This document shows, piece by piece, positions 38,686-58,302 of a DNA stretch of 64,000 bases. The stretch lies in assembly GCF_016888135.1 (NCBI RefSeq), contig NZ_JACSWB010000243.1, positions 1 to 64,000 of the forward strand, given 5' to 3'. The translations under genes were made by a program, and so were the position numbers. The stretch comes from Leptolyngbya sp. CCY15150 (GTDB lineage Bacteria; Cyanobacteriota; Cyanobacteriia; RECH01). How positions within the stretch are numbered: the stretch's first letter is position 1; each line of letters starts with the position of its first letter. The notes under the pieces are model-generated. The model made no database searches. It was not told the origin of the DNA and saw only the letters and a program-made list of their open reading frames with translations.

Positions 38686-39348
38686 ATGCATAGCGGAGAT
38701 GATTTAGTCCATCATTGGCTACAAGATGTTCATCCCTCAGATTGGGAGAGATTTACCTATGTCAGCGATCGCCCTCCTTCCTCTTCACCCGAGAGTGATT
38801 CCCTAGATCAGTCCTCCAACCCCTATGTTTTGTCAAACATGGAGGTTGGCGATCGCGTTCAGATTATTGGACTAAACTGCGGAGACGCCACTGCACGCCT
38901 ACGAGGCATGGGATTTATGCCCGGGGTGGCGTTAGAGATTGTCAGCGTACTCTCTAGTGGCTCGGTAATCGTTCGCTTAGGTCAGCAAAGTATCGGGCTC
39001 AATGCACTGATGGCAGGTCAAGTTCAAGTACAGCCTATGGCAGACGGATACGATGCAACCTTAGAAACCTATCAACAGACACCCATTAGGATGAACGATA
39101 TTAAGCCTGGAAACAGCGCTAGCCTGCTAGAATCCAGAATTGGCGATCGCTTTCGGGTCATTGGTTACACCGCAGCAGCCCGCACCTATAAACGTAAACT
39201 CCTCGCCATGGGCTTAACGCCTGGTACAGAGTTCATCGTCACCCGCCATGCTCCTCTTGGTGATCCTACAGAGATTGAGGTAAGACATTTCCATCTAAGT
39301 TTACGTAAAGCAGAAGCAGAAGCATTACATATCGAACGTATTGATTAG
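38686..39348 (+). CDS. feoA: FeoA-type protein with two FeoA domains
   Basis: A 220-residue cytosolic protein needed for FeoB-driven ferrous iron uptake. Canonical FeoA is a single SH3-like domain of about 75-85 residues; here there are two. The first (about 50-122) reads MEVGDRVQIIGLNCGD, ARLRGMGFMPGVALEIV and VRLGQQSIGLNALMAGQVQV. The second (about 135-218) reads GDRFRVIGYTAAARTYKRKL, LAMGLTPGTEFIVTRHAPLG and IEVRHFHLSLRKAEAEAL. A polar 45-residue leader precedes them. feoB begins eleven bases after the stop, so the two are co-transcribed. The doubled form is found in several cyanobacteria. Confidence 0.92.
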   Translation: MHSGDDLVHHWLQDVHPSDWERFTYVSDRPPSSSPESDSLDQSSNPYVLSNMEVGDRVQIIGLNCGDATARLRGMGFMPGVALEIVSVLSSGSVIVRLGQQSIGLNALMAGQVQVQPMADGYDATLETYQQTPIRMNDIKPGNSASLLESRIGDRFRVIGYTAAARTYKRKLLAMGLTPGTEFIVTRHAPLGDPTEIEVRHFHLSLRKAEAEALHIERID

Positions 39349-39358
39349 GGAGATTATT

Positions 39359-41728
39359 ATGCGCCGTTCAATGCCCACATCCTCCTCACCGTCGCAGCTA
39401 CAAACAGACCTACATCCAGTTATTGCCTTAGTGGGTAACCCTAATTGCGGCAAAACCACGCTGTTTAATGCTCTGACAGGAGCCAATCAGCGGGTCGGCA
39501 ACTGGCCGGGCGTCACCGTTGAACGCAAGGAGGGCTTATATCGTCATCAGGATCAATCGTTTTCCATCGCTGACTTACCTGGCATCTATTCGTTAGACGT
39601 AGAAGATGCCGCTATTGGGTTAGATGAACAGGTCGCTAGAGATTATTTAATCTCCAACGCCGCAGATCTGGTCATCAACATTGTGGATGCCTCCAACCTA
39701 GAACGCAATCTCTATCTGACAACCCAAATTTTAGAGATGGGTCTTCCCATGGTGGTCGTGCTGAATATGATGGATTTAGCAGAAAAGCGAGAGCTACAAA
39801 TACGCCCCCATGAGTTAGCTCAGCGTCTAGGCTGCCAGGTTGTACCCATTTGTGCCACGCGACATCAAACGCTCTCAACCCTCAAAACAACCATTCAGGA
39901 TGCGATCGCCCATCCAGCGATTCCCTCTGCCTATGTGGCCTATCCTCCCCTAATTGAAACTGCCCTAAGCGAGATTTTATCCCTGCAAGATTTAGCCCAT
40001 CCATCAACGACACATCGGCGTTGGCTAGCTCTAGAGCTATTGCAGTATGAGGATCATCATCAAGATACGAGTCCTGATCTGCAGCGCTGTATTGTGCAGC
40101 ATCGCCATCGAATTCACCAAGTTTTGGGAGACGATCTAGACCTGTTAATTGCTGATGCTCGGTATAGTTGGATTCATCACATAGTTCAACAGGTTAAAAC
40201 CAAGGGACAGACCGTACAGCCTTATCTATCTGACCGGATTGATCGCATTGTATTAAGTCGTGCCTTGGGCATACCCATCTTTCTGGTGGTTATGTATGCC
40301 ATGTTTTTGATATCAATTAACCTCGGCGGAGCCTTTATTGACTTTTTTGATATTGCATTTGGTACCATTTTCATTGATGGCATTGCCCATGGTTTGACAT
40401 CCATTAGCGCTCCCGGTTGGCTCATCGGACTCTTGGCTGATGGCGTTGGAGGCGGTATTCAAACCACGGCAACTTTCATTCCGCAAATTGGTTTGTTGTT
40501 TATTTGCTTATCCATTTTAGAAGACTCTGGCTACCTTGCTAGGGCAGCGTTTGTCATGGATCGCTTCATGCGGCTTGTGGGATTGCCTGGCAAGTCTTTT
40601 GTGCCCATGATGGTGGGGTTTGGGTGTAACATCCCTGGAATTATGGCCACCCGCACCCTAGAAAGCCGACGCGATCGCTTAATGACGATCATGATGAATC
40701 CGTTCATGTCCTGCGGCGCTCGGTTACCTGTCTATGCTTTATTTTGTGCCGCCTTCTTTCCTAGAAATGGACAGAATATTGTTTTCATGTTGTATCTACT
40801 AGGGATTCTAGCTGCGGTATTCACCGGCCTGGTGCTCAAGCATACTCTACTCAAGGGTGAGATTTCTCCCTTTATCATGGAGCTACCGCCCTATCATATT
40901 CCTACCCTGCGTGGCGTATTGATTCGAGCCTGGGAGCGCCTGAGATCCTTTATTATCCGAGCCGGCAAGATGATTGTGATCATGGTTGTGGTATTGGGTC
41001 TGCTTAACTCGGTGGGCACCGACGGATCCGTTGGTCACCAAGATAGTCAGACATCCATGCTCAGTGCTGTCAGCCGTACCATTACTCCAGTTTTTGCGCC
41101 CATGGGCATCCAATCTGAAAACTGGCCAGCCACCGTCGGGATTTTTACGGGAGTCTTTGCGAAGGAGGTGATGGTGGGCAGCATGGATTCTTTGTATACG
41201 GAGCTGGCGAGTCAGGAATTAGGTCATGAAGAAGACGCTCCTGAGGACTTTAGTTTATGGGGTGGTCTAGGAGAAGCGATCGCTAGTATTCCAGCCAATC
41301 TGGCAGATCTCGGCAATCAGATCCTAGATCCAGTCGGCATGAACATTATGGATAGCTCGACCGACCAAACGGCAGCCGCCGAAGCTCAAGAGGTTCACTA
41401 CACCACCTTCGGACAGATGGCCCAGCGGTTTGGCAGTTCTACAGCCGCGATCGCTTACCTATTGTTTGTCTTACTGTACTTCCCCTGTGTTTCGGCAACT
41501 GCGGCGGTGTTCCGTGAAACGAATCTGGGCTGGACTATCTTTGTTGGGCTCTGGACAACTGGACTTGCCTACTGGGTGGCAGTCTTGTATTACCAAAGCA
41601 TGTCGTTAGCGCAAGCACCTGGTACAGCAATTCCTTGGATTGCCGGTCTGCTGGCTGCGATGGGCTTGGTCATCCTAGGGTTCAAGATAGCAGGCGATCG
41701 CCTAACCCCCACCAAGGCTCGTTCCTAA
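39359..41728 (+). CDS. feoB: Ferrous iron transporter FeoB
   Basis: Inner-membrane Fe2+ transporter with an N-terminal G-domain. The ATG at 39359 has AGGGAG eight bases upstream; a TTG at 39341 would overlap feoA. G motifs: G1 GNPNCGKTT (about 25-33), G2 region VGNWPGVTVER, G3 DLPG, G4 NMMD and a G5-like CATR. A helical guanine-dissociation-inhibitor domain follows (about 190-285). The membrane part runs from about 295, with two Gate motifs, including the FGCNIPGIMATRTLESRRDR block with the conserved Cys and MNPFMSCGARLPVYALF. FAKEVMVGS marks the second Gate region. At 789 residues it is of normal size. It is followed by a hairpin and feoC. Confidence 0.95.
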   Translation: MRRSMPTSSSPSQLQTDLHPVIALVGNPNCGKTTLFNALTGANQRVGNWPGVTVERKEGLYRHQDQSFSIADLPGIYSLDVEDAAIGLDEQVARDYLISNAADLVINIVDASNLERNLYLTTQILEMGLPMVVVLNMMDLAEKRELQIRPHELAQRLGCQVVPICATRHQTLSTLKTTIQDAIAHPAIPSAYVAYPPLIETALSEILSLQDLAHPSTTHRRWLALELLQYEDHHQDTSPDLQRCIVQHRHRIHQVLGDDLDLLIADARYSWIHHIVQQVKTKGQTVQPYLSDRIDRIVLSRALGIPIFLVVMYAMFLISINLGGAFIDFFDIAFGTIFIDGIAHGLTSISAPGWLIGLLADGVGGGIQTTATFIPQIGLLFICLSILEDSGYLARAAFVMDRFMRLVGLPGKSFVPMMVGFGCNIPGIMATRTLESRRDRLMTIMMNPFMSCGARLPVYALFCAAFFPRNGQNIVFMLYLLGILAAVFTGLVLKHTLLKGEISPFIMELPPYHIPTLRGVLIRAWERLRSFIIRAGKMIVIMVVVLGLLNSVGTDGSVGHQDSQTSMLSAVSRTITPVFAPMGIQSENWPATVGIFTGVFAKEVMVGSMDSLYTELASQELGHEEDAPEDFSLWGGLGEAIASIPANLADLGNQILDPVGMNIMDSSTDQTAAAEAQEVHYTTFGQMAQRFGSSTAAIAYLLFVLLYFPCVSATAAVFRETNLGWTIFVGLWTTGLAYWVAVLYYQSMSLAQAPGTAIPWIAGLLAAMGLVILGFKIAGDRLTPTKARS

Positions 41729-43892: not shown

Positions 43893-46796
43893 ATGCCCAT
43901 TTATCCAGCTACCAAAATTGTCAAAGATCGGCGGGACTACAATACTTGGGTGGCCACTGAAACCCTAGAAGACTATGCCCTCCGCTTTGCGCCCACCTCA
44001 TTTCGGAAATGGTCAGAACTCTTAGTTGCGAATACGGCCAATGGTGGTCTCTCCTTTTTGGCCTTGGAAGCTATTGGCGGATCGTTGGCCATTCGCTATG
44101 GGTTCGTCAACTCATGTTGGGCGATCGCTGTCGTCGGCATGATCATTTTCCTTACCGGCCTCCCGATCGCTTATTATGCCGCTCGATACAACGTAGATAT
44201 TGATTTGCTCACCCGAGGAGCAGGTTTTGGCTATATCGGGTCAACGATGACCTCCTTGATCTATGCCTCGTTTACCTTTATCTTCTTTGCCATCGAAGCT
44301 GCCATCATGGCCCAGGCTCTAGAACTCTATCTTCATCTACCGTTGCCTGTTGGCTACATTATCTGTTCTGTCTCGATTATCCCCTTAGTCTTTTTCGGCA
44401 TGACGCTGCTCAATCAACTGCAGCTATGGACTCAGCCCATTTGGTTGATTCTCATCCTATTGCCCTATGCCTGCGTGTTGTATAAGGAACCCAGTGCCTT
44501 TACCAACTGGACACATTTTACAGGGCAACTGAGAGCATCCACCTTTGATCCCCTACTCTTTGGATCTGCGGCTACCGTATCGTTTGCATTAATTGTGCAG
44601 ATTGGTGAACAGGTTGACTTTTTGCGATTTCTGCCAGATAAGCAGGATAGTAATCGACGCGCTTGGTGGCTAGCCGTGCTCATGTCTGGCCCAGGCTGGA
44701 TCGTGATTGGCTGTCTGAAACAGTTAGGAGGAGCATTCCTGGCTTCGTTGGCGATCGCCCATGGCGTCAGTTTTGCCAAAGCTCATGAACCTACTCAAAT
44801 GTATCTTGTTGGGTTTGAGTATGTGTTTTCCAATCCAGACGTGGTGTTAGCCGTCACCATTCTATTTGTCATCCTTTCCCAGGTCAAAATTAATGTTACC
44901 AATGCCTATGCTGGTTCCTTAGCTTGGTCTAACTTTTTCTCGCGACTGACCCATAGCCATCCTGGACGCGTCGTGTGGCTGGTGTTTAATGTGGCGATCG
45001 CCCTTGTCCTTATGGAGTTCGGTATCTTTTCAACCCTAGAGGTCGTCTTGGGGCTCTATGCCAACGTGGCGATCGCTTGGGTGGGGGCCTTGGTTGCCGA
45101 TTTGGTGATTAATAAGCCCCTAGGCTTAAGTCCGCGCCACATCGAGTTTAAGCGCGCCCATCTTTATAACTTTAATCCTGTGGGCTGTGGATCGGCCCTG
45201 ATTGCTTCCCTCGTCTCGATCGCCGCCTTTGTGGGCGCTTTTGGCCCAGAAGCTAAGGCCTTTGCGTCATTCATTGCCCTGGGTTTATCCTTGCTGCTGT
45301 CGCCAGCGATCGCCCTCCTCACCCGTGGTAAGTATTATTTAGCCCGAGAGGATAGCTATGAAACCACTGGACAGCCCATCAATTGCTGTATCTGTGAGCA
45401 AGAGTATGAGCCCCAGGATATGTCGTTTTGTCCCGTCTATGCTGATGCCATCTGTTCTCTCTGCTGTAGTTTAGATATGCGCTGTCATGACGTGTGTAAA
45501 ACCCCATTTGTTCAGTTGTCTGACCAGCTTGAACGCGCACAACCCGCTGTGTCAAACCCGGATGAGGCACTGAGGCTGGAGGAACGCGATCGCCAATCAC
45601 CCTCACCCTCTCCCCCCATTCATCTCCCGGATCAGACCCTCCTCGGACGCTTTCTTCAGACTAAGCTATCGCCCCAGTTGGGCATGAAATTACTGAAATA
45701 CCTAGCCATATTTCTGGTATTATCTGTCTTGGTGGGAAGTATTTTAGGACTGGTGTACTATCAGCAGGTGATGAGCGATCCAACCCTCTCACCCAGCACC
45801 GTGCAGCGTCTCACCTCAACCTTGATTGAAGTTGCGGCTACCTTTTGGGTGCTCATTGGCATTGGCGCATGGTGGTTAGTGCTGACTGAAGAAAGTCGGC
45901 AGCTTGCCCAAGACGAGCTAGATAAGCAAAACCTTCAGCTTCAGCAAGAAGTACAGGAGCGTCAGTTGGCAGAAGTACAGCTACAGGAAAAAGCCCAGCA
46001 GCTCGAACAAACCCTGCGGAATTTGCAGCAAGCCGAAGCCCAACTGATTCAGACTGAGAAAATGGCCGCCTTGGGAGGGTTGGTGGCAGGGATTGCCCAT
46101 GAAATTAACACCCCGATTGGGATTGGGGTCACGGCGGCGTCATTTTTGATGGAAAAAACAACGGCCTTTGCCGACGCCTTTAAGAACGGCACCATGAAGC
46201 GATCGGATCTGCAAAAGTTTATCGATATTGCCGAACAAAGTAGCGGCATGACCTTGACCAATCTCAATCGTGCTGCCCAGCTCATCCAGAGCTTTAAGCA
46301 GGTGGCGGTGGATCAATCCAGCGAATCGAAGCGCGTCTTTCACCTGGTTGTTTATCTAGAAGAGATTTTGCTACAGCTTAGTCCTAAACTCGCCCTCACG
46401 CCCCATCGCGTTGACGTCAAGGGCGATCGCCATCTGAGTCTCCATAGCTATCCGGGAGCATTTTCCCAAATTGTGACTAATTTGGTGATCAATTCCCTCC
46501 TCCATGCCTATGGGCCGGATGACCAAGGGCATATTTGTTTAACCGTTGTGCAAACAGAACGCGGTATTGTATTGGACTATACAGATGACGGCTATGGGAT
46601 TCCGCCCGAGAATTTGGGCAAAATATTTGAACCCTTCTTCACCACAAAACGAGGTCAGGGCGGCAGCGGTTTGGGGCTACATATCGTGTACAATCTCGTG
46701 ACTCAAAAGTTAGGTGGCACCATTCAATGTGAAAGTCAACTGGCGGTTGGTACAACCTTTCGCATTGAGTTGCCTAACCCATCCACTCAACCTTAG
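43893..46796 (+). CDS. NCS1-type permease fused to a sensor histidine kinase
   Basis: Residues about 30-480 form a complete NCS1 nucleobase-cation symporter-like domain with some twelve helices (ESxxLL-like SELLVANTANGGLSFLALEA at the start, GAGFGYIGSTMTSLIYASFT in the middle). A Cys-rich module follows at 497-536, with nine Cys in a CCxC-11x-C-7x-CxxCC-5x-C-3x-C pattern. Two further helices (about 600-620, 640-665) lead to a coiled coil and the kinase: H-box GIAHEINTP with His736, N-box VTNLVINSLLHAYG, and G-boxes DDGYGIP and GGSGLGLHIV. So a transporter body serves as sensor, as in the CbrA plan where the transporter is of the SLC5 type. The partner regulator gene starts 4 bp after the stop. 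The ligand is probably a nucleobase or related compound; that is inferred from the fold. Confidence 0.92.
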   Translation: MPIYPATKIVKDRRDYNTWVATETLEDYALRFAPTSFRKWSELLVANTANGGLSFLALEAIGGSLAIRYGFVNSCWAIAVVGMIIFLTGLPIAYYAARYNVDIDLLTRGAGFGYIGSTMTSLIYASFTFIFFAIEAAIMAQALELYLHLPLPVGYIICSVSIIPLVFFGMTLLNQLQLWTQPIWLILILLPYACVLYKEPSAFTNWTHFTGQLRASTFDPLLFGSAATVSFALIVQIGEQVDFLRFLPDKQDSNRRAWWLAVLMSGPGWIVIGCLKQLGGAFLASLAIAHGVSFAKAHEPTQMYLVGFEYVFSNPDVVLAVTILFVILSQVKINVTNAYAGSLAWSNFFSRLTHSHPGRVVWLVFNVAIALVLMEFGIFSTLEVVLGLYANVAIAWVGALVADLVINKPLGLSPRHIEFKRAHLYNFNPVGCGSALIASLVSIAAFVGAFGPEAKAFASFIALGLSLLLSPAIALLTRGKYYLAREDSYETTGQPINCCICEQEYEPQDMSFCPVYADAICSLCCSLDMRCHDVCKTPFVQLSDQLERAQPAVSNPDEALRLEERDRQSPSPSPPIHLPDQTLLGRFLQTKLSPQLGMKLLKYLAIFLVLSVLVGSILGLVYYQQVMSDPTLSPSTVQRLTSTLIEVAATFWVLIGIGAWWLVLTEESRQLAQDELDKQNLQLQQEVQERQLAEVQLQEKAQQLEQTLRNLQQAEAQLIQTEKMAALGGLVAGIAHEINTPIGIGVTAASFLMEKTTAFADAFKNGTMKRSDLQKFIDIAEQSSGMTLTNLNRAAQLIQSFKQVAVDQSSESKRVFHLVVYLEEILLQLSPKLALTPHRVDVKGDRHLSLHSYPGAFSQIVTNLVINSLLHAYGPDDQGHICLTVVQTERGIVLDYTDDGYGIPPENLGKIFEPFFTTKRGQGGSGLGLHIVYNLVTQKLGGTIQCESQLAVGTTFRIELPNPSTQP

Positions 46797-46800
46797 ATTT

Positions 46801-47925
46801 ATGGAACCGTCTATGTCCAAAAAAGCGTATGATGCCTTGACTGGTGCCCAACAGGATGAGCTTATGTATGATCTTGAGGATGATGAACTTCAATTTGCCG
46901 AAGAAACAGAATTACAATCGCCAGAAAAGAGCTGGAAGATCTTGATTGTGGATGACGAGGCGGAGGTGCACCACGTCACCAAACTAGCCCTCGCAGATGT
47001 CACCTTTGAGAATCGCTCTCTCGCGTTTATGAGTGCCTATTCTGGGGAAGAAGCAAAGCAGGTGATTCGTGCCCATCCCGATACGGCGATCATCTTTTTG
47101 GATGTGGTCATGGAAACGGAAAACGCCGGCTTAGACGTCATTCAGTTTGTACGCGAGGAGTTAGAAAACTCGGCGGTGCGGATTATTCTACGCACTGGAC
47201 AGCCCGGCCAAGCGCCGGAAACGGTGGTGTCGGTAAATTATGGTATCGACGAATACAGAACCAAAACAGAACTTACATCACAAAAGCTATTTATTACCGT
47301 GGTGACGGCCTTAAGAACCTTTTCCATCTTGATGCAAGAACGCGAGAAAATACAGCAGCTAGAGCGATCGCTGCGTCTATTCCAGCATGTTCAGCTCCAG
47401 CCCGAGCAGCGGGAGAAAATTGAAACTCTCGGTCAACTGGTCACTGAGGTCACCCAAGATATCATCAATTCCCCCAGCGGCGGAGCCCTATCGATGATGT
47501 CTAAACTAACGCGGCTAGCGCGAGTTGTGCTGCGAATTACGGATGAGCAATCGGCGAAACTTGGTTTGTCTCAAAGTAAACTATCGGTGCTCATGTATCT
47601 CAATAGTGAGCCAGACTTTTGTTCTAGTCCATCCTTGCTGGCGAAACACTGCGGCATTTCCCGAGCTGCCATGACGGGTTTGCTAGACGGCTTGGAGCAA
47701 GATCACTATATTGAGCGCGATAGTCATCCATCGGATCGCCGCGCCTTGATGGTCAAACTCACCCCGAAGGGACAACAGTTTTTCGATTGGATTGCTCTAG
47801 AGGAGGGGGCTCAACTATCTACGCTCATGGATGCCCTCGATGATACTGAACGGCAGAAACTATTTGATCTCGCTACCCACGCACTCAAACTTGTTGAAAA
47901 GAAAACCGAGCAGGCTGATCCATAA
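46801..47925 (+). CDS. Response regulator with MarR-type output domain
   Basis: I start at the ATG at 46801, 4 bp after the kinase stop; 46813 is possible. Residues 47-175 form a receiver: ILIVDDEAEVH, phospho-acceptor Asp101 in IIFLDVVMETENAGLDVI, and the closing IDEYRTKTELTSQKLF with the conserved Lys. This receiver is of the sort found with DUF3369 outputs (long METENAGL loop). After a helical linker (about 180-250) comes a MarR-like winged helix (about 255-370): LGLSQSKLSVLMYL, LLAKHCGISRAAMTGLLDGLEQ, YIERDSHPSDRRALMVKLTPKG. Receiver plus MarR is a rare pairing. Together with the upstream fusion it forms a two-component system. Target genes are unknown. Confidence 0.92.
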   Translation: MEPSMSKKAYDALTGAQQDELMYDLEDDELQFAEETELQSPEKSWKILIVDDEAEVHHVTKLALADVTFENRSLAFMSAYSGEEAKQVIRAHPDTAIIFLDVVMETENAGLDVIQFVREELENSAVRIILRTGQPGQAPETVVSVNYGIDEYRTKTELTSQKLFITVVTALRTFSILMQEREKIQQLERSLRLFQHVQLQPEQREKIETLGQLVTEVTQDIINSPSGGALSMMSKLTRLARVVLRITDEQSAKLGLSQSKLSVLMYLNSEPDFCSSPSLLAKHCGISRAAMTGLLDGLEQDHYIERDSHPSDRRALMVKLTPKGQQFFDWIALEEGAQLSTLMDALDDTERQKLFDLATHALKLVEKKTEQADP

Positions 47926-47976: not shown

Positions 47977-48792
47977 CTACAGCGATCGCGCTATAGGAAT
48001 ACACATCGGTGTTCCAGCGACAGGATCGGCAATAATTTTGCTTTTTAAGCCAAACACATCCTGCACCATGGTTGCAGTCATGACCACCGAGGGAGCACCT
48101 TGGGCGTAGATCTTACCCTCTTTGATAGCTACTACATGGTGACCATAACGACAGGCTTGATTTAGATCATGGAGCACCAAAACAATGGTTCGTCCTTGGG
48201 ATTGATACAAATCGTAGAGGAGATCCAAAACCTCTACTTGGTGAGCCAGGTCAAGAAATGTCGTGGGTTCATCCAGGAGTAAAATATCCGTATCTTGAGC
48301 AAGAACCATGGCGATCCAGGCCCGCTGGCGTTGCCCTCCCGATAGTGTGTCCAGAGGGCGATCGCACAAATCTTCCAGATCGGTAATCTGCAAAGCATCA
48401 TCTACGGCCTGCTCATCCTGGATAGACCATTGCTGCAGCCAAGTTTGGTGTGGATAGCGCCCTTGAGCCACTAGTTCACGAACCGTTAGTCCTTCTGGAG
48501 CTACTGGATTTTGGGAGAGGAGAGCAATATGGCGAGCGATCGCCTTGGTTGACTGAGAGGCTAGGGGTTTATTATTTAAATACACTTGCCCCGTGCAGGG
48601 TTTTAGCAATCGTCCTAGCCCTTTGAGCAGCGTTGACTTGCCACAGCCGTTAGCCCCAACTAAAACCGTAATTTGTCCAGGGGGAATGGCTAAGCTAACC
48701 TGATGAATAATAGTCGTTCGACCATAGGCTAAGGTTAGATTTCTTGCCTCGATCTGCACCGTTGAGCATGGCATGGTACTCAGCTTGTTCAT
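47977..48792 (-). CDS. Fe3+-siderophore ABC transporter, ATPase
   Basis: A 271-residue ATP-binding subunit of the FepC/FecE type. Walker A GANGCGKST (about residues 43-51), Q-loop ALLSQNP, signature LSGGQRQRAWIAMVLAQ, Walker B ILLLDEPTTFLDL, and switch His in VLHDLNQACRYG are all intact. The family marker GLTVRELVAQGRYPHQTW supports a ferric-siderophore or cobalamin importer. It lies seven bases after the second permease gene on the same strand, as last gene of a three-gene operon. No binding-protein gene is in the set. Confidence 0.93.
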   Translation of the reverse strand: MNKLSTMPCSTVQIEARNLTLAYGRTTIIHQVSLAIPPGQITVLVGANGCGKSTLLKGLGRLLKPCTGQVYLNNKPLASQSTKAIARHIALLSQNPVAPEGLTVRELVAQGRYPHQTWLQQWSIQDEQAVDDALQITDLEDLCDRPLDTLSGGQRQRAWIAMVLAQDTDILLLDEPTTFLDLAHQVEVLDLLYDLYQSQGRTIVLVLHDLNQACRYGHHVVAIKEGKIYAQGAPSVVMTATMVQDVFGLKSKIIADPVAGTPMCIPIARSL

Positions 48793-48798
48793 GGATAC

Positions 48799-49887
48799 CT
48801 AAACTCCTCCCACTGATGGACGTTGTTTCATCATTAACATGAGAAAATAAGGCGCTCCTAGTAATGATGTAATCAAACCACAGGGTAGCTCGATAGGGGC
48901 AAAGATACTCCGCCCCAGCAAATCAGCAGCCATCACCAAGCAGGCACCCACAACGGCTGAGACTAAAATAACCCCCTCATGGCTAGGCCCGACTAATTGG
49001 CGGGAAATATGGGGGGCAATAAATCCAACAAAGCCAATCGTACCGGCTGTAGCGACCGATGCTCCAGATAATAGAACAGCCACTAGAAGTAATATACCTC
49101 GTCGCCACTCTAGGGCAATTCCCAACCCACGGGCCGTATCATCACCCAAATTAAGACCATTAAGGTCGCGGGCCATTAGCAGCACTATCGGTAAACTAAC
49201 CATCAGCCACGGCGCTAGGGCCCATACTTGATCCCAGGTGCGTCCATAGACACTGCCCGTTAGCCAGATGAGGGCTTGGGAGACTTGGTTGAGGTTGCCA
49301 AAGGTGATCAAAATGTTGGTGATGGCTCCGGTCATCAGCGAGAAGCCAATGCCAACTAAAACAAGACGGATGGGCGAAGTTCCGCTATTCCAGGATAGTC
49401 CGTAAACCAATCCTGCTACCATCAAGCCGCCACTAAAGGCCGCGATGGGTAAGATAGCGGTGGGTACGCTAGGCACGACAATGATACATATTACGGCTGC
49501 CAATGCGGCACCGTTGTTAATGCCAATGATATCTGGCGACGCGAGGGGATTGCGTAATAGTCCCTGGGTAATCGTGCCGGCGATCGCTAACCCCATACCT
49601 GCCAGCAAAGCAGTGAGCACCCGAGGAAGGCGTAGGCTGTTGACCACAAATAGATAGTCTGGATTCTGGGTTTGGCCTCCCAGGATAGCCCGAACAACCT
49701 CAAGGGGTGGTACTGGGTATTCACCATGGGCGACTGAGATCACCAACAGCGCCACAACAAGCCCTCCAAGACCCAGGACAACCGCAGGAACTTGGGCTTT
49801 AATCCGAAATGAAAGGGGAAGAAAGCGGCTGCGAAGGATGAGCCATTGGGGCGATCGCACGGCAGAAGTCTGGTGGGGATGGGTCAT
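48799..49887 (-). CDS. Fe3+-siderophore ABC transporter permease (FecD/FepG-like)
   Basis: A BtuC/FecCD-family permease with about ten helices. Characteristic blocks: LRLPRVLTALLAGMGLAIAG (about 83-102), QGLLRNPLASPDIIGINNGAALAAV (about 107-131), and GTIGFVGFIAPHISRQLVG near residue 285, which is the coupling region. Its start overlaps the stop of the preceding permease gene by 4 bp, so translation is coupled. The paired partner is encoded at 49884-50954. Confidence 0.92.
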   Translation of the reverse strand: MTHPHQTSAVRSPQWLILRSRFLPLSFRIKAQVPAVVLGLGGLVVALLVISVAHGEYPVPPLEVVRAILGGQTQNPDYLFVVNSLRLPRVLTALLAGMGLAIAGTITQGLLRNPLASPDIIGINNGAALAAVICIIVVPSVPTAILPIAAFSGGLMVAGLVYGLSWNSGTSPIRLVLVGIGFSLMTGAITNILITFGNLNQVSQALIWLTGSVYGRTWDQVWALAPWLMVSLPIVLLMARDLNGLNLGDDTARGLGIALEWRRGILLLVAVLLSGASVATAGTIGFVGFIAPHISRQLVGPSHEGVILVSAVVGACLVMAADLLGRSIFAPIELPCGLITSLLGAPYFLMLMMKQRPSVGGV

Positions 49888-50954
49888 CGTTTTAGCTTTG
49901 TGCGAATTAGATAGATAAAGAAGGGAGCCCCCAGCAACGGCATGATCAAGCCGACGGGAACCTCCTGGGGGCGAATCACAAGACGGGCTAGAATATCTGC
50001 TATGATCAACAAGATACCCCCCATAAGAGCAGAATAGGGCAACACCCAGCGATAGTCGATGCCTGCAAAAAAACGCACCAGATGGGGAACGACTAAGCCA
50101 ATAAATCCAATTGGGCCAGCCATAGCCACACTACTACCCACCAGTAATACTACAGTTAGCGTACCTAGTCCTTTAACCCACGCCGTATTTTGACCCAATC
50201 CCTGAGCAATTGGCTCTCCCAAACTCAATACCGTCAGATTCCGAGCCAGCACTAGAGATAATGCCATTCCCAGCAGTAAGATAGGGAAAACATGCTGGAG
50301 CACCTCCATACTCCCCCCAGCGACAGAGCCAGCCAGCCAAAACCGAACTTGTTCTAGGGTTTGCTGGTTGAGCAACAGCAGGCTAGTCGTCAACGTGCTG
50401 ATCAGGGTGGCAAATACGGTTCCAGATAGGGTCAGGTTCAATGGGGTGATGCCGCCGGGGGCAAAAGATGCAAATAGATAAACAAGCACAGCAGTGCTGG
50501 CCCCACCGATCATCGCCAGACTGGCTTGGGTCATGGGGTCGTTGACTCCCCAGAGGGATGTGGATACCACAACGGCAAAGGCTGCCCCGGCACTAACGCC
50601 GAGAATGCTAGGCGAGGCTAGGGGGTTGCAGGTTAACCCTTGCATAGTGGCTCCAGCGATCGCCATGGCCGCACCGACCAGCAGAGCCACCAGCGATCGC
50701 GGTAGGCGCACCGTACGGATAATCAGATGGTTGGTGGAGGTTTCATCAAAGTTGACGAGCGACTGCCACACCTCCAAGGGCGTGATATCAGCAGCGCCGA
50801 GGGCAACACTGGCAAATAGACACCCCACCAAGGCTAGAGTTCCAAGTACCAGACCCACCATAAGCATAGACAACGACCGGCGGGCGATCGCTGGCTGACG
50901 GACAGACGATAGCATAGTAGACCGTGAATAGTATGGATTTAATTGAGGCATCAT
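49884..50954 (-). CDS. Fe3+-siderophore ABC transporter permease (FecC/FepD-like)
   Basis: A second FecCD-family permease and first gene of the operon. It shows TVRLPRSLVALLVGAAMAIA, GLTCNPLASPSILGVSAGAAFAVV and GPIGFIGLVVPHLVRFFAG at the expected spacing. The true start could be the ATG at 50915, which would remove 13 residues of a polar leader. Upstream of it are only 176 bp before exbD, and no gene for a substrate-binding protein is found on either side, so that component must be encoded elsewhere. Confidence 0.92.
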   Translation of the reverse strand: MMPQLNPYYSRSTMLSSVRQPAIARRSLSMLMVGLVLGTLALVGCLFASVALGAADITPLEVWQSLVNFDETSTNHLIIRTVRLPRSLVALLVGAAMAIAGATMQGLTCNPLASPSILGVSAGAAFAVVVSTSLWGVNDPMTQASLAMIGGASTAVLVYLFASFAPGGITPLNLTLSGTVFATLISTLTTSLLLLNQQTLEQVRFWLAGSVAGGSMEVLQHVFPILLLGMALSLVLARNLTVLSLGEPIAQGLGQNTAWVKGLGTLTVVLLVGSSVAMAGPIGFIGLVVPHLVRFFAGIDYRWVLPYSALMGGILLIIADILARLVIRPQEVPVGLIMPLLGAPFFIYLIRTKLKR

Positions 50955-51130: not shown

Positions 51131-51550
51131 TTACTGCACCGCCTGAGACTGAGAGCGCTGAGTGGCAATTCCAAGCTGGGCCCCTTCTACGGTGCGTAAC
51201 TCATCCATGACAGATACGACGATGCCGTGGGATACCTCTGTATCAGCGTTAATCGTGACTAGCGCACTATCGCGATCGCCCTTCAGTTGACTAACTTGAT
51301 CAGCCAGATCCGGTAGGGCCACCGAGTTACGATTGAGGCTTAGCTCCCCTGATGGATCAATGGTGACGACAATGGCCTCAGTGCGCTGAGTTTCGGCGGT
51401 TTCAGCATTGGGTAGATTGACCGGCAAACCCTCTGAGCGGGTCATGAACAGGGTAGACATAATGAAAAAGGTCAAAATAGCAAAAATGACATCAATCATC
51501 GGCACGATATTAATATCCGCAGTCGTATCCATATCATCTGGCACATTCAT
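51131..51550 (-). CDS. exbD: ExbD/TolR-family protein
   Basis: A 139-residue inner-membrane protein, one of the two proton-channel subunits that energise TonB. The single helix near the N-terminus contains the proton-carrying Asp in NIVPMIDVIFAILTFFIM (Asp at about residue 19). A periplasmic domain follows (VNLPNAETAE, VVTIDPSGELSLN, VTINADTEVSHGIVVSVMDEL). Its ATG overlaps the exbB stop codon by 4 bp (ATGA), the usual coupling. Confidence 0.93.
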   Translation of the reverse strand: MNVPDDMDTTADINIVPMIDVIFAILTFFIMSTLFMTRSEGLPVNLPNAETAETQRTEAIVVTIDPSGELSLNRNSVALPDLADQVSQLKGDRDSALVTINADTEVSHGIVVSVMDELRTVEGAQLGIATQRSQSQAVQ

Positions 51551-52218
51551 GATCGTTCACTCCCAACCATCTGATGTTGATACCCATGGGCTTGCTCATA
51601 GCGACAAAGATAGAGGAGCTCCAGTTGTCCACCATGTTCTTGAATTAAGGCAAGCTGACGTCGATAAAAGCCTCGAAATAAATTGGCAAAGATCAGCGTA
51701 AAAATAGCGATCGCCATCCCCGCCGCCGTAGACACCAAAGCCTCACTGATGCCCCCGGTGACAGCCGCCGCATTGCTGGCTCCCAGATCTCCCAACTGTA
51801 GCGACGAGAAGGAACGAATCAGTCCCAAAATTGTACCTAACAATCCCAATAATGGGGCAGCACTGATGACAATATCAAAGGCAGTATTAAAGCGTCGCAG
51901 CAATGGGATCTCAGCTTGGGTTGCGCTCTCCAACGCCAGGCGAAATCCCACCGGCGATAGATTGTATGAAACCTCAAAGGCTTCGAGAAAAATGCGGGCA
52001 ATGGGCAGATCGGCATGACGCTTTAATGTATCCACCACCGCCGCTGGATCATGCTGAAAAAGGGACAGCGTCTCTTGCACAACCCGACGCTGACGACGGT
52101 TAACGCGTGACCAAAATACCAACCGCTCAATAATTAACCCAATGGAAAGCAGCGAAAAACCAAGCAGCGGCACCATGACAATGCCGCCAGCCACTAGAGT
52201 ATCGATCAAATTTTGCAT
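51547..52218 (-). CDS. exbB: ExbB/TolQ/MotA-family proton channel protein
   Basis: A 223-residue inner-membrane protein with three helices: about 10-33 (GGIVMVPLLGFSLLSIGLII), 115-140 (FDIVISAAPLLGLLGTILGL) and 160-185. The last two carry the TolQ/ExbB signature APLLGLLGTILGLIRSF and GISEALVSTAAGMAIAIFTLI with the conserved Thr. It is the first gene of the exbB-exbD unit. A TonB-like gene is divergent across a 355-bp region that holds a Fur-box-like site and a 30-bp palindrome. Confidence 0.93.
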   Translation of the reverse strand: MQNLIDTLVAGGIVMVPLLGFSLLSIGLIIERLVFWSRVNRRQRRVVQETLSLFQHDPAAVVDTLKRHADLPIARIFLEAFEVSYNLSPVGFRLALESATQAEIPLLRRFNTAFDIVISAAPLLGLLGTILGLIRSFSSLQLGDLGASNAAAVTGGISEALVSTAAGMAIAIFTLIFANLFRGFYRRQLALIQEHGGQLELLYLCRYEQAHGYQHQMVGSERS

Positions 52219-52573: not shown

Positions 52574-53977
52574 ATGAGTTTATCGCAGACCGCTTTCCAG
52601 CATCGCGATCGCCAATCTCAACTCTCCAATCCCATCCTGCTTTGGGGGGTCGTAGGTTCCATGGTTGCCCATGGTGGGCTGCTGCCTATGTTCCTGTGGC
52701 TAGGACAACAGAGTCCTCTGCCAGAGCCAGCTCGCATTGAGATTATTGTTACGGAACCCCCGCCCTTAGCCGAAGAAGAACCCGAGCCTGCCCAGTTGAG
52801 CGATCGCCCCCTAGAGGAAGCGCCTGTGGACGAGCCATCTCCCCAGGATCCTGGAGTGGAAGCTGCACCCACAGCCTCTCTGCTAGCCCCCGATGCTACG
52901 CCTGAACCCGTGGATAGTCCTCCAGAGACGGTGGATGACCAGGTTAACGAGCCTGTGGAAGAGGAGCCCGTGGAGGAGGACATAGTGGCAGACCAGCCAG
53001 ATTCCCCAGACGAGGAAAGTCCCGATTCAGAAGCGCCCGATGAGGTGGGCGAGGTTGACGAACCCGAGCCGTCTGCCTCGGCTACAGAAGCTGATTCTGA
53101 GCCGGCCGAACCCCGAGCCAGCACGCCTAGGACTCATGCGTCGCGTCGCTCTACCCAAGCTCTGGGCGATCGCCTCCAAGGCCGTACTCCATCCAATTCC
53201 CGTTCCCAGGGCAGCGATCGCCCTGGGCCGCCCGCCGACACCCAAGCTGCCCAACCTGGACAGACGGGTTCCGACAATGCCGGAGAAGATTCTGCGGACG
53301 AAGATGCTGGCGGCGACTCCCGAACCGTTGCCTGTCAGCATTGCCCTTCCCCTAGGTATCCGCAATCTGCCCTCGATGCCAATGTTGAAGGCAGCGTTGG
53401 CATTATGGTTGACATCAGCCCCAGCGGCGCGGTGTCCCATGCCAGCGTCGTCAGCTCCAGCGGCTCCTCAGCCCTCGACCAAGCTGCGCTATCCACCGTG
53501 AGAGGAGAATGGCTTTTCCAGCCTATTTCCGGCGGTGCCAATGGAGTCATGGTGAGTGTGGTTATGACTATTTCTGGCTCAGACCTCAACCGTCGGGCCC
53601 AAGAGCAGGGTAATCGAGAGTCCGTCGATCTGCCGTCTGAGCCGGAGCCAGAGGAAAGCACAGCAGAGGTAGAGTCCGAGGAGCGCCAGGATCAGGACGA
53701 TAGTGCAGAATCGACGACCGAACCACTGCCGGAATCACCCCCTCCCTCCGAGTCGCCTTCCGAGGATAGCCTGCCGCCTGAAGCTCCAGCCGTCGAGCCG
53801 CCCGAGGCGATAAGTCCGCCTGAGGAAGCACCCGCCGAGCCGCCCCCGGCCGATCCTGTGCCAGATCCCCCCGCTGCCGTTGAGCCGCCCCCGCCGCCTG
53901 AACCGGCTGCGCCAGCCCCACCTGTTGAGGTTAATCCACCTTCTGAGATCGAGAACGAGGAGGAGACTGGGCTGTAG
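52574..53977 (+). CDS. TonB-like energy transducer with an internal TonB domain
   Basis: Residues about 20-42 form one membrane helix (LLWGVVGSMVAHGGLLPMFLWLG), with the membrane His (VAHGG) that TonB proteins need. Then comes a Pro/Glu-rich spacer (about 50-245). A TonB C-terminal-type domain follows at about 255-335: CQHCPSPRYPQSALDANVEG, then VGIMVDISPSGAVSHASVVSSSG and ALSTVRGEWLFQPISG. In ordinary TonB this domain ends the protein; here another 125 residues of Pro/Glu/Ser-rich tail follow. The CQHC pair just before the domain is also uncommon. Length 467. It is divergent from exbB-exbD, which should power it. The receptor it serves is not in the window. Confidence 0.85.
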   Translation: MSLSQTAFQHRDRQSQLSNPILLWGVVGSMVAHGGLLPMFLWLGQQSPLPEPARIEIIVTEPPPLAEEEPEPAQLSDRPLEEAPVDEPSPQDPGVEAAPTASLLAPDATPEPVDSPPETVDDQVNEPVEEEPVEEDIVADQPDSPDEESPDSEAPDEVGEVDEPEPSASATEADSEPAEPRASTPRTHASRRSTQALGDRLQGRTPSNSRSQGSDRPGPPADTQAAQPGQTGSDNAGEDSADEDAGGDSRTVACQHCPSPRYPQSALDANVEGSVGIMVDISPSGAVSHASVVSSSGSSALDQAALSTVRGEWLFQPISGGANGVMVSVVMTISGSDLNRRAQEQGNRESVDLPSEPEPEESTAEVESEERQDQDDSAESTTEPLPESPPPSESPSEDSLPPEAPAVEPPEAISPPEEAPAEPPPADPVPDPPAAVEPPPPPEPAAPAPPVEVNPPSEIENEEETGL

Positions 53978-54077: not shown

Positions 54078-54677
54078 ATGCCAATGGTGAGAAGAATGGT
54101 TGCTTCGTCTCAACTCCCCGTTGACCCCGATGAATATCTGCGGCTTGAAGCCGAAAGCCCCATCAAGCATGAGTACGTCAACGGTGAAGTCTATGCGATG
54201 GCAGGGGCGACGGATGCCCACGTGACGATCGCTGGCAACCTGTTTGCCATGCTCCGCAGCCATGTGCGGGGAACAGGATGCCGCGTTTACATTGCCGATA
54301 TGAAACTACGGGTGGAGTTGCGCAACTGTTTTTATTATCCCGATGTGGTGGTGACGTGTGATGAACGGGATGCGGAGACTTCGACGTACAAGCGATTCCC
54401 GAAGCTGATTGTAGAGGTGCTGTCGGCTTCGACAGAAGCGTTCGATCGCGGCAATAAGTTTTTTGATTACCAAACCCTCGATACGCTGGACGAATATGTG
54501 CTGATTAATACCCAGCATCAACGGGTGGAATGTTTTCGGCGTAACTCGGAGGGACTGTGGGTGCTGCAATCCTATCATCCAACGGATAAAACCTTTGAGT
54601 TACAGAGCCTTGCGTTTCAGGATAATCTAGATGCACTCTATGAAGATGTGACGTTGGAGCCAACTCCATCGACTTGA
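54078..54677 (+). CDS. Uma2-family (DUF820) putative endonuclease
   Basis: A 199-residue protein of the Uma2 family, very numerous in cyanobacteria and with a PD-(D/E)xK nuclease fold. The family pattern is clear: DPDEYLRLEAESPIKHEYVNGEVYAM at the start, VYIADMKLRVELRNCFYYPDVVVTCD with the acidic Asp, and PKLIVEVLSAST with the Glu. The segment RGNKFFDYQTLDTLDEYVLIN follows. The true start may be the ATG at 54096, which matches the family start better. The cellular role is unknown; mobile-element association is often suggested. It is not in an operon. Confidence 0.85.
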   Translation: MPMVRRMVASSQLPVDPDEYLRLEAESPIKHEYVNGEVYAMAGATDAHVTIAGNLFAMLRSHVRGTGCRVYIADMKLRVELRNCFYYPDVVVTCDERDAETSTYKRFPKLIVEVLSASTEAFDRGNKFFDYQTLDTLDEYVLINTQHQRVECFRRNSEGLWVLQSYHPTDKTFELQSLAFQDNLDALYEDVTLEPTPST

Positions 54678-55125
54678 GGAGCGATGTCAGTTTGGGGGTG
54701 AGCGGTTTGACCATTTTGTTGCCACTATCTTGTTGCCTATGACGCGATCTCGATCATGTCATGCTTGTGGCTGATCAGTTCAAAATCGCTCCTTGATAGT
54801 CTAGGGGGATGACGTGATTGAGGCGCAGGAGTTCTGGAATCATGACCCGCAGTTTGTTTTACAGACTATCCAAGGAGGGGGATTCAGTAACAAGTCCGGG
54901 AATGTCGTCGCTGGTGACGCCCCAAACGGCAGCCATAGCATCCCAAACGGCGTTGGTTTGAAGAGGGGGGTGGTTCATGCTGGCTGAGGTTTTATGCAAT
55001 TGCCTTCTCCCAAGCATAGCCAATGAGGTGTTTGAACAGATGACGAAGGACATAGGCGAAAACTGCATAGCTGCTTGCTGCCCTGCGACTATGTACGATA
55101 TGGATGTAATGAGAAACCCCAAACC
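54678..55125. other. Intergenic region containing a broken DUF1902 gene
   Basis: 448 bp between Uma2 and the CHAT gene; the minus strand carries the DUF1902 remnant (54775-54978). The rest has no recognisable feature. Confidence 0.5.
54775..54978 (-). pseudogene. DUF1902 (antitoxin-like) gene with an in-frame stop
   Basis: From the ATG at 54978 the frame reads TNAVWDAMAAVWGVTSDDIP and GLVTESPSLDSL, then a TAA at 54859-54861, and continues in the same frame with NKLRVMIPELLRLNHVI to a TGA at 54775-54777. Both parts together give a 68-codon protein fitting the DUF1902 pattern (WD-x-A-x-VW-x-TSDDIPGL, then KLRVMIPELL). The second half lies where the family's second helix should be, so one stop codon has split the gene. 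No toxin gene is visible next to it. Confidence 0.7.
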
Positions 55126-58100
55126 ATGAACGCGAAAACATTTTTGCCGTTGCTGACTTCGTTGCTCGTTGTGCCTGTTTCCCTGTTTGTGGTACTGTTG
55201 CCAGCCTCACGGGCGGAGGCTCAGGTTACGGTTGCCCAGATGGATGCGGCAGCCTTGCTGGTAGGAGCAAATCGCCTTCTCCAACAAGGCATTCAACAGT
55301 ATCAGGTAAGCCAGTTTCAATCTGCCTTACAGTCCTGGCAAAAGGCACTAGAACTCTATCAAGATCCATCTGTGCGAACTGCGTTTCCTCAAGAGAGCCG
55401 TCAAGGAGAAGGAAATGTACTACGGCGCTTAGGCAATATTGACTTTGTACTGGGTCAGTACGATCAATCCATTGACTTTTATGAGCAAGCTCTTGAAATT
55501 GCCCGTGAGATGGGCGATCGTTCTAGTGAAGGCAGCGCTCTAAGTGGTCTGGGGAATAGTCACGCGGCTTTGGGTCAATATCAACAAGCAATTGACTTCT
55601 ATGAACAAGCCCTGGAGATTGCCCGCGAGATTGGCAGTCGCGATGGAGAGGGATCGGTTTTGGACAGTTTAGGTAATGTTTACCAAAGTCTGGGTCAATA
55701 TCAACAAGCAATTGACTTCTATGAACAAGCCCTGGAGATTGCCCACGAGATTGGCAGTCGTTTTGGTGAAGGCAGCGCTCTAAGTGGTCTGGGGAGTGGT
55801 TACGTGGCTTTGGGTCAATATCAACAAGCAATTGACTTTTATGAACAAGCCCTGGAGATTGCCCGCGAGATTGGCAGTCGCAGTGGAGAAAGATCGGTTT
55901 TGGACAGTTTAGGTAATGTTTACCAAAGTCTGGGTCAATACCAACAAGCAATTGACTTTTATGAACAAGCCCTGGAGATTGCCCGCGAGATTGGCAGTCG
56001 CGATGGAGAGGGATCGGTTTTGGCCAATTTAGGTAATATTTACCAAAGTCTGGGTCAATATCAACAAGCAATTGACTTCTATGAACAAGCCCTAGAGATT
56101 GCCCGTGAGATTGGCAGTCGTTGGAGAGAGGGATCGGTTTTGGACAGTTTAGGCAATGTTTACCAACGTTTAGGTCAATATCAACAAGCAATTGACTTTT
56201 ATGAACAAGCCCTGGAGATTGCCCGCGAGATTGGTACTCGTTCTGGTGAAGGCAGCACTCTAAGTAGTCTGGGGCGTGGTTACATGGCTTTGGGTCAATA
56301 TCAACAAGCAATTGACTTCTATGAACAAGCCCTGGAGATTGCCCGCGAGATTGGCAGTCGTTGGAGAGAGGGATCGGTTTTGGACAGTTTAGGTAATGTT
56401 TACGGTCGGCTCGGGCAACATCAACAAGCGATTGACTTTTATAAGCAAAGCCTTGCTATTGCGCGTGAGATTGGCGCTCGTGTTGGTGAAGGTAGTTCGC
56501 TGGGTGGGCTGGCCAATGCTTATTCAGCTTTGGGGCAGTATCAGAAGGCACTTGAGGGCTATCAGCAAGCGTTAACCATCGCTCAGGAGATTGGCAATCG
56601 CTCTGCAGAAGGCTTGTGGCTCAGTAATATAGGTTTCCTGCTGGCTCAGCAAAACCAACCCGAACTCGCTATTGTATTCTACAAACAATCCGTCAACGTC
56701 CGAGAATCCATTCGGGCTGATATTCGCGGCTTACCCCAGGAACAGCAACAAACTTATACCGAAACCATTGCAGGCTCATATCGGGCACTAGCCGATTTAC
56801 TCCTGCAACAAAACCGCATCCTGGAAGCCCAGCGCGTCCTCGACCTGTTGCGCGTCCAAGAACTAGACGACTACCTCGACGGCGTTCGCAGTACGGCTCA
56901 GACGGAGAGCGGCATTGACCTGCGCGACCCGGAACAGGCGATCAACAACCGCGTCATTGCCGTGGGCTATGAACTAGCCCAACTGCGTGATATTCCTCCC
57001 AACCAGCTCTCTGATAACCAGCTTCAGCGCCTCAGCGAACTCGATATGACCCAGCGGGAGATGTCCGCCGATTTCCAGGGTTTCCTCAACAGTCCTGAAA
57101 TTCAAGCCCTCGTTGCCCAACTCGATGCCAGTCTGCAAGAGCAAGACATCCTGGCCCGCGCTGATGAATTCATTAACCTGCAGAATAATTTACGTGCCAT
57201 CGACCAAAATGCGGTGATGATTTATCCGCTGATCCTAGAAGACCGCCTGGAACTGGTGGTGGTGACACCTTTCAGCGAACCTGCTCGCTATCCCGTTCCG
57301 GTTGACTCCACCGAGCTCAATGCCGCCATTGTGGAATTCCGTCAAGCTCTGGATGACCCCACCAGTGACCCGCGCCCTATTGCCCAACAGCTTTATGATT
57401 GGCTAATCGCGCCGATGGAAGACGACCTAGAAGCCATTGGAGCCGAAACCATTCTCTACGCCCCCGACGGAGCCTTGCGCTATATTCCCCTCGCTGCCCT
57501 GCACGACGGCGACCAATGGCTGATTGAGAACTACCGCATCAACCACATCACCGCCGCCAGTCTGCAAAACTTCACCCTACGCCCCAGCGCTACCCCCTTG
57601 ATCCTAGCCGCCGCTTTCAGTGAAGGAGCCTTTGACGTCCAGATTGGTCAGCGGTCATTTTCCTTTGCGGGTCTTCCCTTTGCTGGAGTAGAAGTGGAAA
57701 ACCTGGTCGCTGCTTTTCCTGACACCACCCAGTTGATGAACGATCGCTTCAGCCGTTCCCTGGTCGAGCCATTGATGGACAGCCACACGATTGTGCATTT
57801 GGCCACCCATGCCGCCTTTGTACCCGGTTCTCCAGCAGATTCATTTATTCTATTTGGCAATGGCGATCGCCTCTCCCTGCAAGACATCCGCGACACCTGG
57901 CAAGGACGGTTCAACCGAGTAGAGTTGATTGTGCTGAGTGCCTGTGAAACTGGGGTCGGGGATGCTCTGGGCAATGGGGAAGAAATCCTTGGGTTTGGCT
58001 ATCTGATGCAGGAAGCAGGAGCCTCAGCAGCGATCGCTTCCCTGTGGGCGGTGAGTGATGGCGGTACGCAAACCTTGATGGATGCCTTCTACGCCAATCT

Positions 58101-58302
58101 GAACCAGCAGATGACCAAAGCCGAGGCCCTGCGCCAAGCCCAGATTGCCTTGATTACCGGCGATCTAACCGCCTCCGGCGTAGAGCGGGGTGCCAGTATC
58201 GATGTGATCAGCACCCGCACCGGCCTGCCGATCGCTGTTGCAGAGACCCTGTCCCATCCCTACTATTGGGCACCGTTCATTTTGATTGGCAACGGATTGT
58301 AA
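55126..58302 (+). CDS. TPR-CHAT protein with near-identical 40-residue repeats
   Basis: The ATG at 55126 gives a signal peptide (KTFLPLLTSLLVVPVSLFVV, cleavage near AEA); an in-frame ATG 51 bp earlier is less likely. Residues about 60-100 are a first divergent TPR. Then follow about ten 40-residue kinesin-light-chain-type TPRs (GQYQQAIDFYEQALEIAREI with variable GSRxGEGSxLxxLG), exactly 120 bp apart from about 55440 to 56640. The C-terminal CHAT domain (about 770-1058) carries the complete dyad: His895 in HLATHA and Cys940 in SACETG, with GASAAIASLW after it. Two types of repeat alternate. The protein is expected outside the cytoplasm. CHAT-TPR proteins are peptidases or peptidase-like in several characterised cases; the target here is unknown. 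Confidence 0.92.
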   Translation: MNAKTFLPLLTSLLVVPVSLFVVLLPASRAEAQVTVAQMDAAALLVGANRLLQQGIQQYQVSQFQSALQSWQKALELYQDPSVRTAFPQESRQGEGNVLRRLGNIDFVLGQYDQSIDFYEQALEIAREMGDRSSEGSALSGLGNSHAALGQYQQAIDFYEQALEIAREIGSRDGEGSVLDSLGNVYQSLGQYQQAIDFYEQALEIAHEIGSRFGEGSALSGLGSGYVALGQYQQAIDFYEQALEIAREIGSRSGERSVLDSLGNVYQSLGQYQQAIDFYEQALEIAREIGSRDGEGSVLANLGNIYQSLGQYQQAIDFYEQALEIAREIGSRWREGSVLDSLGNVYQRLGQYQQAIDFYEQALEIAREIGTRSGEGSTLSSLGRGYMALGQYQQAIDFYEQALEIAREIGSRWREGSVLDSLGNVYGRLGQHQQAIDFYKQSLAIAREIGARVGEGSSLGGLANAYSALGQYQKALEGYQQALTIAQEIGNRSAEGLWLSNIGFLLAQQNQPELAIVFYKQSVNVRESIRADIRGLPQEQQQTYTETIAGSYRALADLLLQQNRILEAQRVLDLLRVQELDDYLDGVRSTAQTESGIDLRDPEQAINNRVIAVGYELAQLRDIPPNQLSDNQLQRLSELDMTQREMSADFQGFLNSPEIQALVAQLDASLQEQDILARADEFINLQNNLRAIDQNAVMIYPLILEDRLELVVVTPFSEPARYPVPVDSTELNAAIVEFRQALDDPTSDPRPIAQQLYDWLIAPMEDDLEAIGAETILYAPDGALRYIPLAALHDGDQWLIENYRINHITAASLQNFTLRPSATPLILAAAFSEGAFDVQIGQRSFSFAGLPFAGVEVENLVAAFPDTTQLMNDRFSRSLVEPLMDSHTIVHLATHAAFVPGSPADSFILFGNGDRLSLQDIRDTWQGRFNRVELIVLSACETGVGDALGNGEEILGFGYLMQEAGASAAIASLWAVSDGGTQTLMDAFYANLNQQMTKAEALRQAQIALITGDLTASGVERGASIDVISTRTGLPIAVAETLSHPYYWAPFILIGNGL
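55441..56640. repeat. 120-bp coding tandem repeats of the CHAT gene
   Basis: Ten units of exactly 120 bp, in register with the coding frame. The core TATCAACAAGCAATTGACTT is repeated almost without change in units from 55561 to 56340. The variable half falls into two types (ALSGLG..YVALG and VLDSLGNVYQSLG) in a partly alternating order. Confidence 0.9.

Follow-up and report, generated by a model that had tools for sequence, protein, structure and literature searches.

The window, that is, the whole 64,000-nucleotide stretch of Leptolyngbya sp. CCY15150 that was analysed, holds a tonB gene with an ATG start in the midst of iron-transport genes (Table 1). Upstream of it and divergently oriented lie exbB and then exbD, followed by two FecCD permeases and an ATPase, and FeoA and FeoB matches are found at 38686-41728. 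The neighbours of tonB are iron importers, alongside an ExbB that scores closer to TolQ (63 bits) than to ExbB2 (42 bits) in NCBIfam, both values being below the cut-offs. The same order of importer, exbD, exbB, and tonB was read by eye from the ORFs of two other loci (L138 and L139), and at a third (L140) we recognised the importer together with exbB and tonB; there, a gene for a receptor follows tonB directly. In the gap between exbB and tonB, the best Fur-box match agrees at 13 of 19 bases, lies at the 95th percentile of 500 shuffles, and is not kept in relatives.

Table 1. Features of the tonB gene, its protein, and the adjoining genes.
Feature	Position	Strand	Basis
tonB gene, 467 aa	52574..53977	+	ORF; TonB_C and tonB_Cterm matches
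Membrane anchor, residues 19-46, with Ser29 and His33	52628..52711	+	full-length model; four of four sequences
Periplasmic linker, residues 47-250, Pro/Glu-rich, predicted disordered	52712..53323	+	low pLDDT, no helix or strand
Cys254-Gln-His-Cys257 (CQHC)	53333..53344	+	sequence; pair in 103/120 strong closed homologues
TonB_C domain, residues 259-332	53348..53569	+	Pfam; fold match 2gsk_B, Z 11.8
Post-domain helix, residues 336-351	53579..53626	+	both AlphaFold models
Tail, residues 352-467, Pro/Glu-rich, predicted without helix or strand	53627..53974	+	composition, full-length model
ExbB-type proton channel gene	51547..52218	-	MotA_ExbB, E 2e-30
ExbD-type gene	51131..51550	-	ExbD/TolR, E 5e-29
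Iron-chelate ABC importer: two FecCD permeases and ATPase	47977..50954	-	domain matches

The protein has what is expected of a TonB transducer: a TonB_C domain (PF03544; E 1.6e-15, 57.8 bits against a Pfam cut-off of 24.6), an anchor with Ser and His, and adjoining ExbB and ExbD genes. The full-length model gives the anchor as helices 19-34 and 36-46 (low confidence), and its Ser29 and His33, invariant in the four sequences compared, are presumably the counterparts of the Ser/His motif of E. coli TonB. TonB is known mainly from E. coli, where the chain stops with the domain and has Arg at position 158. Here, the protein does not end with the domain but continues for 134 residues beyond it, so the first-pass annotation was right that the domain is internal and the tail long. 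The 125 residues given for that tail need adjusting, to 134 if the count starts where the domain ends, or to 116 if it starts after the post-domain helix. What did not stand is the view of a domain in mid-protein as an oddity, as this layout is common in the class; for Anabaena, the legend of Fig. 1 in PMC8597729 describes TonB2, TonB3, and TonB4 with a C-terminal extension. With anchor, long linker, domain, and extension all present, the ORF is a TonB of the usual cyanobacterial form.

Two known systems are particularly close. TonB3 of Anabaena sp. PCC 7120 (all5036), which serves ferric schizokinen uptake, likewise has an anchor, a long linker, a TonB-box-binding region, and a C-terminal extension in the available text of PMC8597729, where a linker of 32 nm at 0.54 nm per 3.6 residues (~213 residues) is similar to the linker here; this likeness is by published description and not by sequence. 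According to the same paper, a tonB3 mutant no longer transported ferric schizokinen. The TonB family protein WP_198808596.1 (L082) of Leptolyngbya sp. BL0902 likewise has the Cys pair, with a tail of 146 residues, and there too exbB and exbD adjoin tonB on the other strand, with a receptor and an iron ABC importer nearby. It differs in that its tonB is on a plasmid (finished and annotated) and in that the receptor is annotated as being of hemoglobin/transferrin type.

Structure prediction places the conserved parts of the protein on the E. coli fold. AlphaFold2 applied to residues 234-368 with four sequences returned a mean pLDDT of 78, with blocks of 87-95 across positions 21-100 of that segment, and 81 and 57 for the blocks of the post-domain helix. 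Both this and the full-length model contain a strand at the Cys pair, a strand of two residues at segment 81-82, and a helix beyond the last strand; in the full-length model they appear as strand 254-256, strand 314-315, and helix 336-351, and both linker and tail are without helix or strand. Strands 21-23 and 81-82 probably face or pair with each other. The pair had been described as preceding the first strand of the domain, and it does lie ahead of the TonB fold; its first Cys, however, opens a short strand of its own, which puts the pair at a strand and not merely before one. Directly behind the domain, the equivalents of Gly335-Ser336 are invariant in all 22 aligned sequences, which had been chosen for having the Cys pair. 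The E. coli TonB C-terminal domain has the same fold (2gsk, 2grx, and 1u07, with Z of 11.8, 9.9, and 11.5), and its aligned chain stops a few residues past the domain. VIA-align superposes model positions 19-101 on residues 153-233 of 2gsk_B (rmsd 1.6, 81 aligned) and 24-103 on 158-235 of 2grx_C (rmsd 1.8, 78 aligned), a placement with which a profile alignment agrees. TolA structures reach a best Z of 7.8, versus up to 11.9 for TonB. Cys254 and Cys257 map to E. coli positions 155 and 158, with Arg158 in place of Cys257 (chain numbering). Since the TonB boxes of BtuB and FecA were disulfide-trapped to the region of TonB residue 160, as the available part of PMC11658791 describes, the pair would, by this mapping, adjoin a TonB-box contact. 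A thioredoxin-like family was not among the Pfam matches up to E 1, and the model has the first Cys in a strand ahead of the TonB fold, the expected place of a thioredoxin-type CxxC being the start of a helix; absence from a fold list does not in itself disprove such a kinship.

How common the pair and tail are was assessed by searching TonB_C in overlapping samples (59 relatives, 194 genomes from the phylum, and 291 from the class) and by re-reading the fetched strong matches (137) with a purpose-built domain profile. By hand count, 113 of the first 128 listed rows had been fetched; the other 15 were 12 extra copies in f4, f13, and f52, families in which the pair was not seen, and three short frames (G386, G392, G411). 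Excluded from the 137 were four frames that run off a contig end (each has the pair), six matches from outside the class (none with it), and seven below 50 bits. Among the matches listed, this left 120 strong homologues of the class with closed frames, spread over 112 genomes and 21 families. Among these listed matches, 103 have a Cys pair before the domain (95 genomes, 16 families). The spacing is C-x-x-C in 101 of the 103, and overall it varies between C-x2-C, C-x3-C, and C-x4-C. Behind the domain, 88 of the pair proteins have tails of at least 50 residues (55-261, median 151), kept in 14 families, six have 6-49 residues, and nine at most five, while all 17 homologues without the pair (f4, f13, f20, f29, f52) end within five residues. 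Because family sizes are uneven, these counts are of sequences and not of evolutionary events. With both features in 88/120, the pair and tail pointed out in the first-pass annotation are genuine and common to the class, and its proviso that homologues might end right after the domain does not apply. Their occurrence together at the same place in so many homologues appears to be more than chance.

At 40 bits or more there were 123 rows, 90 with pair and tail and one (L024) with a tail and no pair before the domain; at 20 bits or more there were 127, and those without the pair included two long tails (L024, L030) and three of 6-49 residues (L026, L028, L031). Twenty weaker matches, hand-chosen from the listed rows, included 14 with the pair (two cut by a contig end) and six without. 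On a tree of the domain only (125 rows, 74 columns; support of the deepest fork 60/85), three changes account for the rows without the pair and nine for short-tailed Cys rows, which would fit, though it does not prove, an old Cys pair with repeated tail loss. The same counts of three versus nine changes led us to reject the idea of pair and tail as one strict unit.

The cysteines are not always at the same places. In the numbering of the 234-368 segment, the main form has its pair at 21 and 24. In four sequences (L024, L186, L204, L206; f28, f35, f41), the first Cys at 21 is kept and the second is at 82, within the short model strand 81-82; two of these, L024 and L186, had been candidates for single-Cys homologues, which the Cys at 82 rejects. 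Nine TonB-like sequences (L196-L203 and L205; f34, f35, f41) have Cys at 34 and 105, the latter just behind the last strand, and none at 21, 24, or 82, and six more (L026, L030, L031, L178, L182, L002) resemble this form by eye. The nine, with 10-176 residues after the match, look like a second TonB-like group. Proteins of the 21/82 and 34/105 forms are also often long-tailed. Of 14 loci examined, three have the pair, two the 21/82 form, and nine the 34/105 form, a pattern to test and not a sampled frequency, as these loci were picked by hand after L024 and L186 had been seen. Within the pair proteins, 102/103 have no Cys inside the domain and 101/103 none anywhere after it. Two cysteines that are kept while their positions move would be expected of a disulfide, and the pattern appears to favour a plain structural one. 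As to other partners, the TonB box of the receptors (31 receptor loci) has no conserved Cys, and a mixed disulfide with the receptor was rejected, since 26/31 loci have no Cys in a 46-residue TonB-box stretch; in four of the remainder (L149, L150, L154, L158) the Cys precedes the box-like motif, and the frame of L159 is broken. The window's ExbD offers no Cys partner either.

From its residue 21 on, the tail is 31% Pro, 29% Asp/Glu, and 0.9% Lys/Arg, and the description of the tail as acidic is therefore correct for this protein. As a conserved trait we rejected acidity: the mean net tail charge by family ranges from -37 to +26, with f1, f12, and f24 below zero and f31 (at a guess, Nostocaceae) and f27 above it. 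Compared with the nearest relative, dN/dS is 0.05 for pair and domain, 0.25 for the tail, and 0.32 for the linker, values that are rough, coming from one sequence pair with dS near saturation. Across the 18 codons of the helix region, the same comparison has one amino-acid change and eight silent codon changes. The constrained unit thus appears to be the pair, the domain, and the helix.

The receptor Plug family occurs at one place in the whole genome, on contig C247 and not on the contig of tonB, in an AMIN-Plug-barrel protein (L143) whose neighbours are a periplasmic binding protein, a condensation domain, an ABC exporter-like protein, and an aminotransferase. These are NRPS-like pieces, and the place may be a locus for the organism's own siderophore. 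Besides this tonB, the genome gave just one TonB_C match (L002), which is below the cut-off and is without a Cys pair before the domain; with one receptor and a single strong TonB_C match, one TonB most likely serves one receptor. In the wider set, ExbB and ExbD are both in the fetched flank of 58/69 Cys-pair matches versus 2/9 matches without the pair. A Cys-pair TonB was in the set for 26/96 class genomes, 25 of which have a receptor (the exception is G001); since a receptor is also present in 12/13 genomes with a strong TonB lacking the pair, receptor presence marks TonB and not the pair. Neither strong kind was found in 57/96 class genomes, of which 21 have a receptor, and this group includes some with a merely diverged TonB (e.g. 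G021, G035, G048).

In the established action of the TonB family, a membrane helix is energised by ExbBD, the linker spans the periplasm, and TonB_C pairs with the TonB box of the receptor. The best explanation of our data, which we favour somewhat over its alternatives taken together, is a TonB driven by ExbBD in the ordinary way, with its hinge stapled by a disulfide and a tail that is loose in sequence. The family, fold, neighbours, and conservation of the protein are direct observations. Beyond these, the TonB_C domain, the fold, the adjoining ExbB and ExbD, and the receptors in Cys-pair genomes suggest a machine that would power iron-chelate uptake via an outer-membrane receptor, with a disordered linker of ~200 residues crossing the periplasm. 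Cys254 and Cys257 would form a disulfide in the oxidising periplasm, as suggested by the moving Cys places, the Cys-free domain, and the presence of a VKOR gene in the genome; the second Cys at 82 in L024 and L186 makes this somewhat likelier. Such a disulfide would staple the short strand at the point where the pulled linker joins the domain, next to the TonB-box contact, and may keep the hinge from fraying under load. The helix behind the domain may cap the last strand, and the tail past it would be a disordered spacer in which bulk counts and not sequence or charge, consistent with its linker-like dN/dS and low predicted structure. Against this explanation count the varying Cys spacing, the 17/120 strong homologues without the pair, the tail being short or absent in 15/103 pair proteins and so dispensable in some, and the ExbB that is nearer TolQ than ExbB2.

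Among the alternatives, an arm that binds peptidoglycan or the wall and anchors or steers TonB, which goes beyond the first-pass annotation's suggestion that the tail may reach into the periplasm or wall, would suit tails that are this long and this widely kept, yet composition and charge differ between families, and a changing sign argues against one conserved wall ligand; with dN/dS like that of the linker and no wall-binding domain found in the protein by Pfam, we regard such an arm as unlikely. To a frameshift or misassembly as the origin of the tail we give practically no credence, as the tail is in frame in the nearest relative with dN/dS near 0.25, the BL0902 plasmid record is finished with a single uninterrupted gene, and 88/120 homologues have the same layout.

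The cysteines could also act by opening and closing with redox state, in line with the redox response proposed in the first-pass annotation, or by binding a metal, tuning the coupling between TonB and receptor. Cyanobacteria produce oxygen and require much iron, and a pair beside the TonB-box contact with near-constant CxxC spacing would be well placed for this in such organisms; the 21/82 and 34/105 variants, however, fit a structural disulfide more naturally, and a single chain does not offer a third or fourth Cys as metal ligand, making regulation of this kind rather improbable. Its fuller version, a built-in coupling switch whose redox or metal state locks the hinge at the TonB-box groove, with helix and tail co-evolved, strikes us as quite doubtful. 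If it were true, oxidant load or metal status would throttle iron import in the final step of force transfer. Two TonB chains might instead be joined through their pairs, by disulfides or by one metal on four Cys as in a zinc hook. TonB fragments have crystallised as dimers, and neither the TonB box of the receptors nor the window's ExbD presents a Cys partner; the 21/82 variants, on the other hand, would give a different bridge, and we consider the bridge very improbable. The preferred reading remains that of a structural disulfide.

The tail of cyanobacterial TonB is already in print, in the portion of PMC8597729 available, while the Cys pair seems undescribed: the word "cysteine" has no occurrence in the available text of PMC8597729, PMC8262864, PMC2771747, PMC12204202, PMC10878165, or PMC10792254, and we found no title on a TonB Cys pair in the mostly open-access literature covered. 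New to us are the map of the pair to E. coli 155/158, the two-Cys variants 21/82 and 34/105, and the conserved post-domain helix before a disordered tail that is negatively charged in some families and positively in others. A conserved and apparently movable Cys pair at a receptor-contact hinge, with a conserved helix behind the domain, is a widespread change at the spot where TonB grips its receptor. The organisms concerned need very large amounts of iron, and the change could reveal how a hinge that bears force gets reinforced.

Several other features of the window may be recorded. Directly after tonB is a gene for an Uma2-type putative endonuclease (54078-54677), and beyond it, near-identical 120-base tandem repeats (55450-56543; 7.5 copies, 80% matches) lie inside a TPR-like ORF (55075-58302). 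On the importer side, a 967-residue protein (43893-46796) ends as a histidine kinase ATPase, and its first two thirds look transporter-like by our own reading, with no Pfam match. The gene overlapping it (46714-47925) has a weak response-regulator match (29.7 bits against a cut-off of 30.2) and a MarR-type domain. At 33436-34806, one protein combines a cyclophilin-type isomerase domain with calcium-binding repeats of RTX type.
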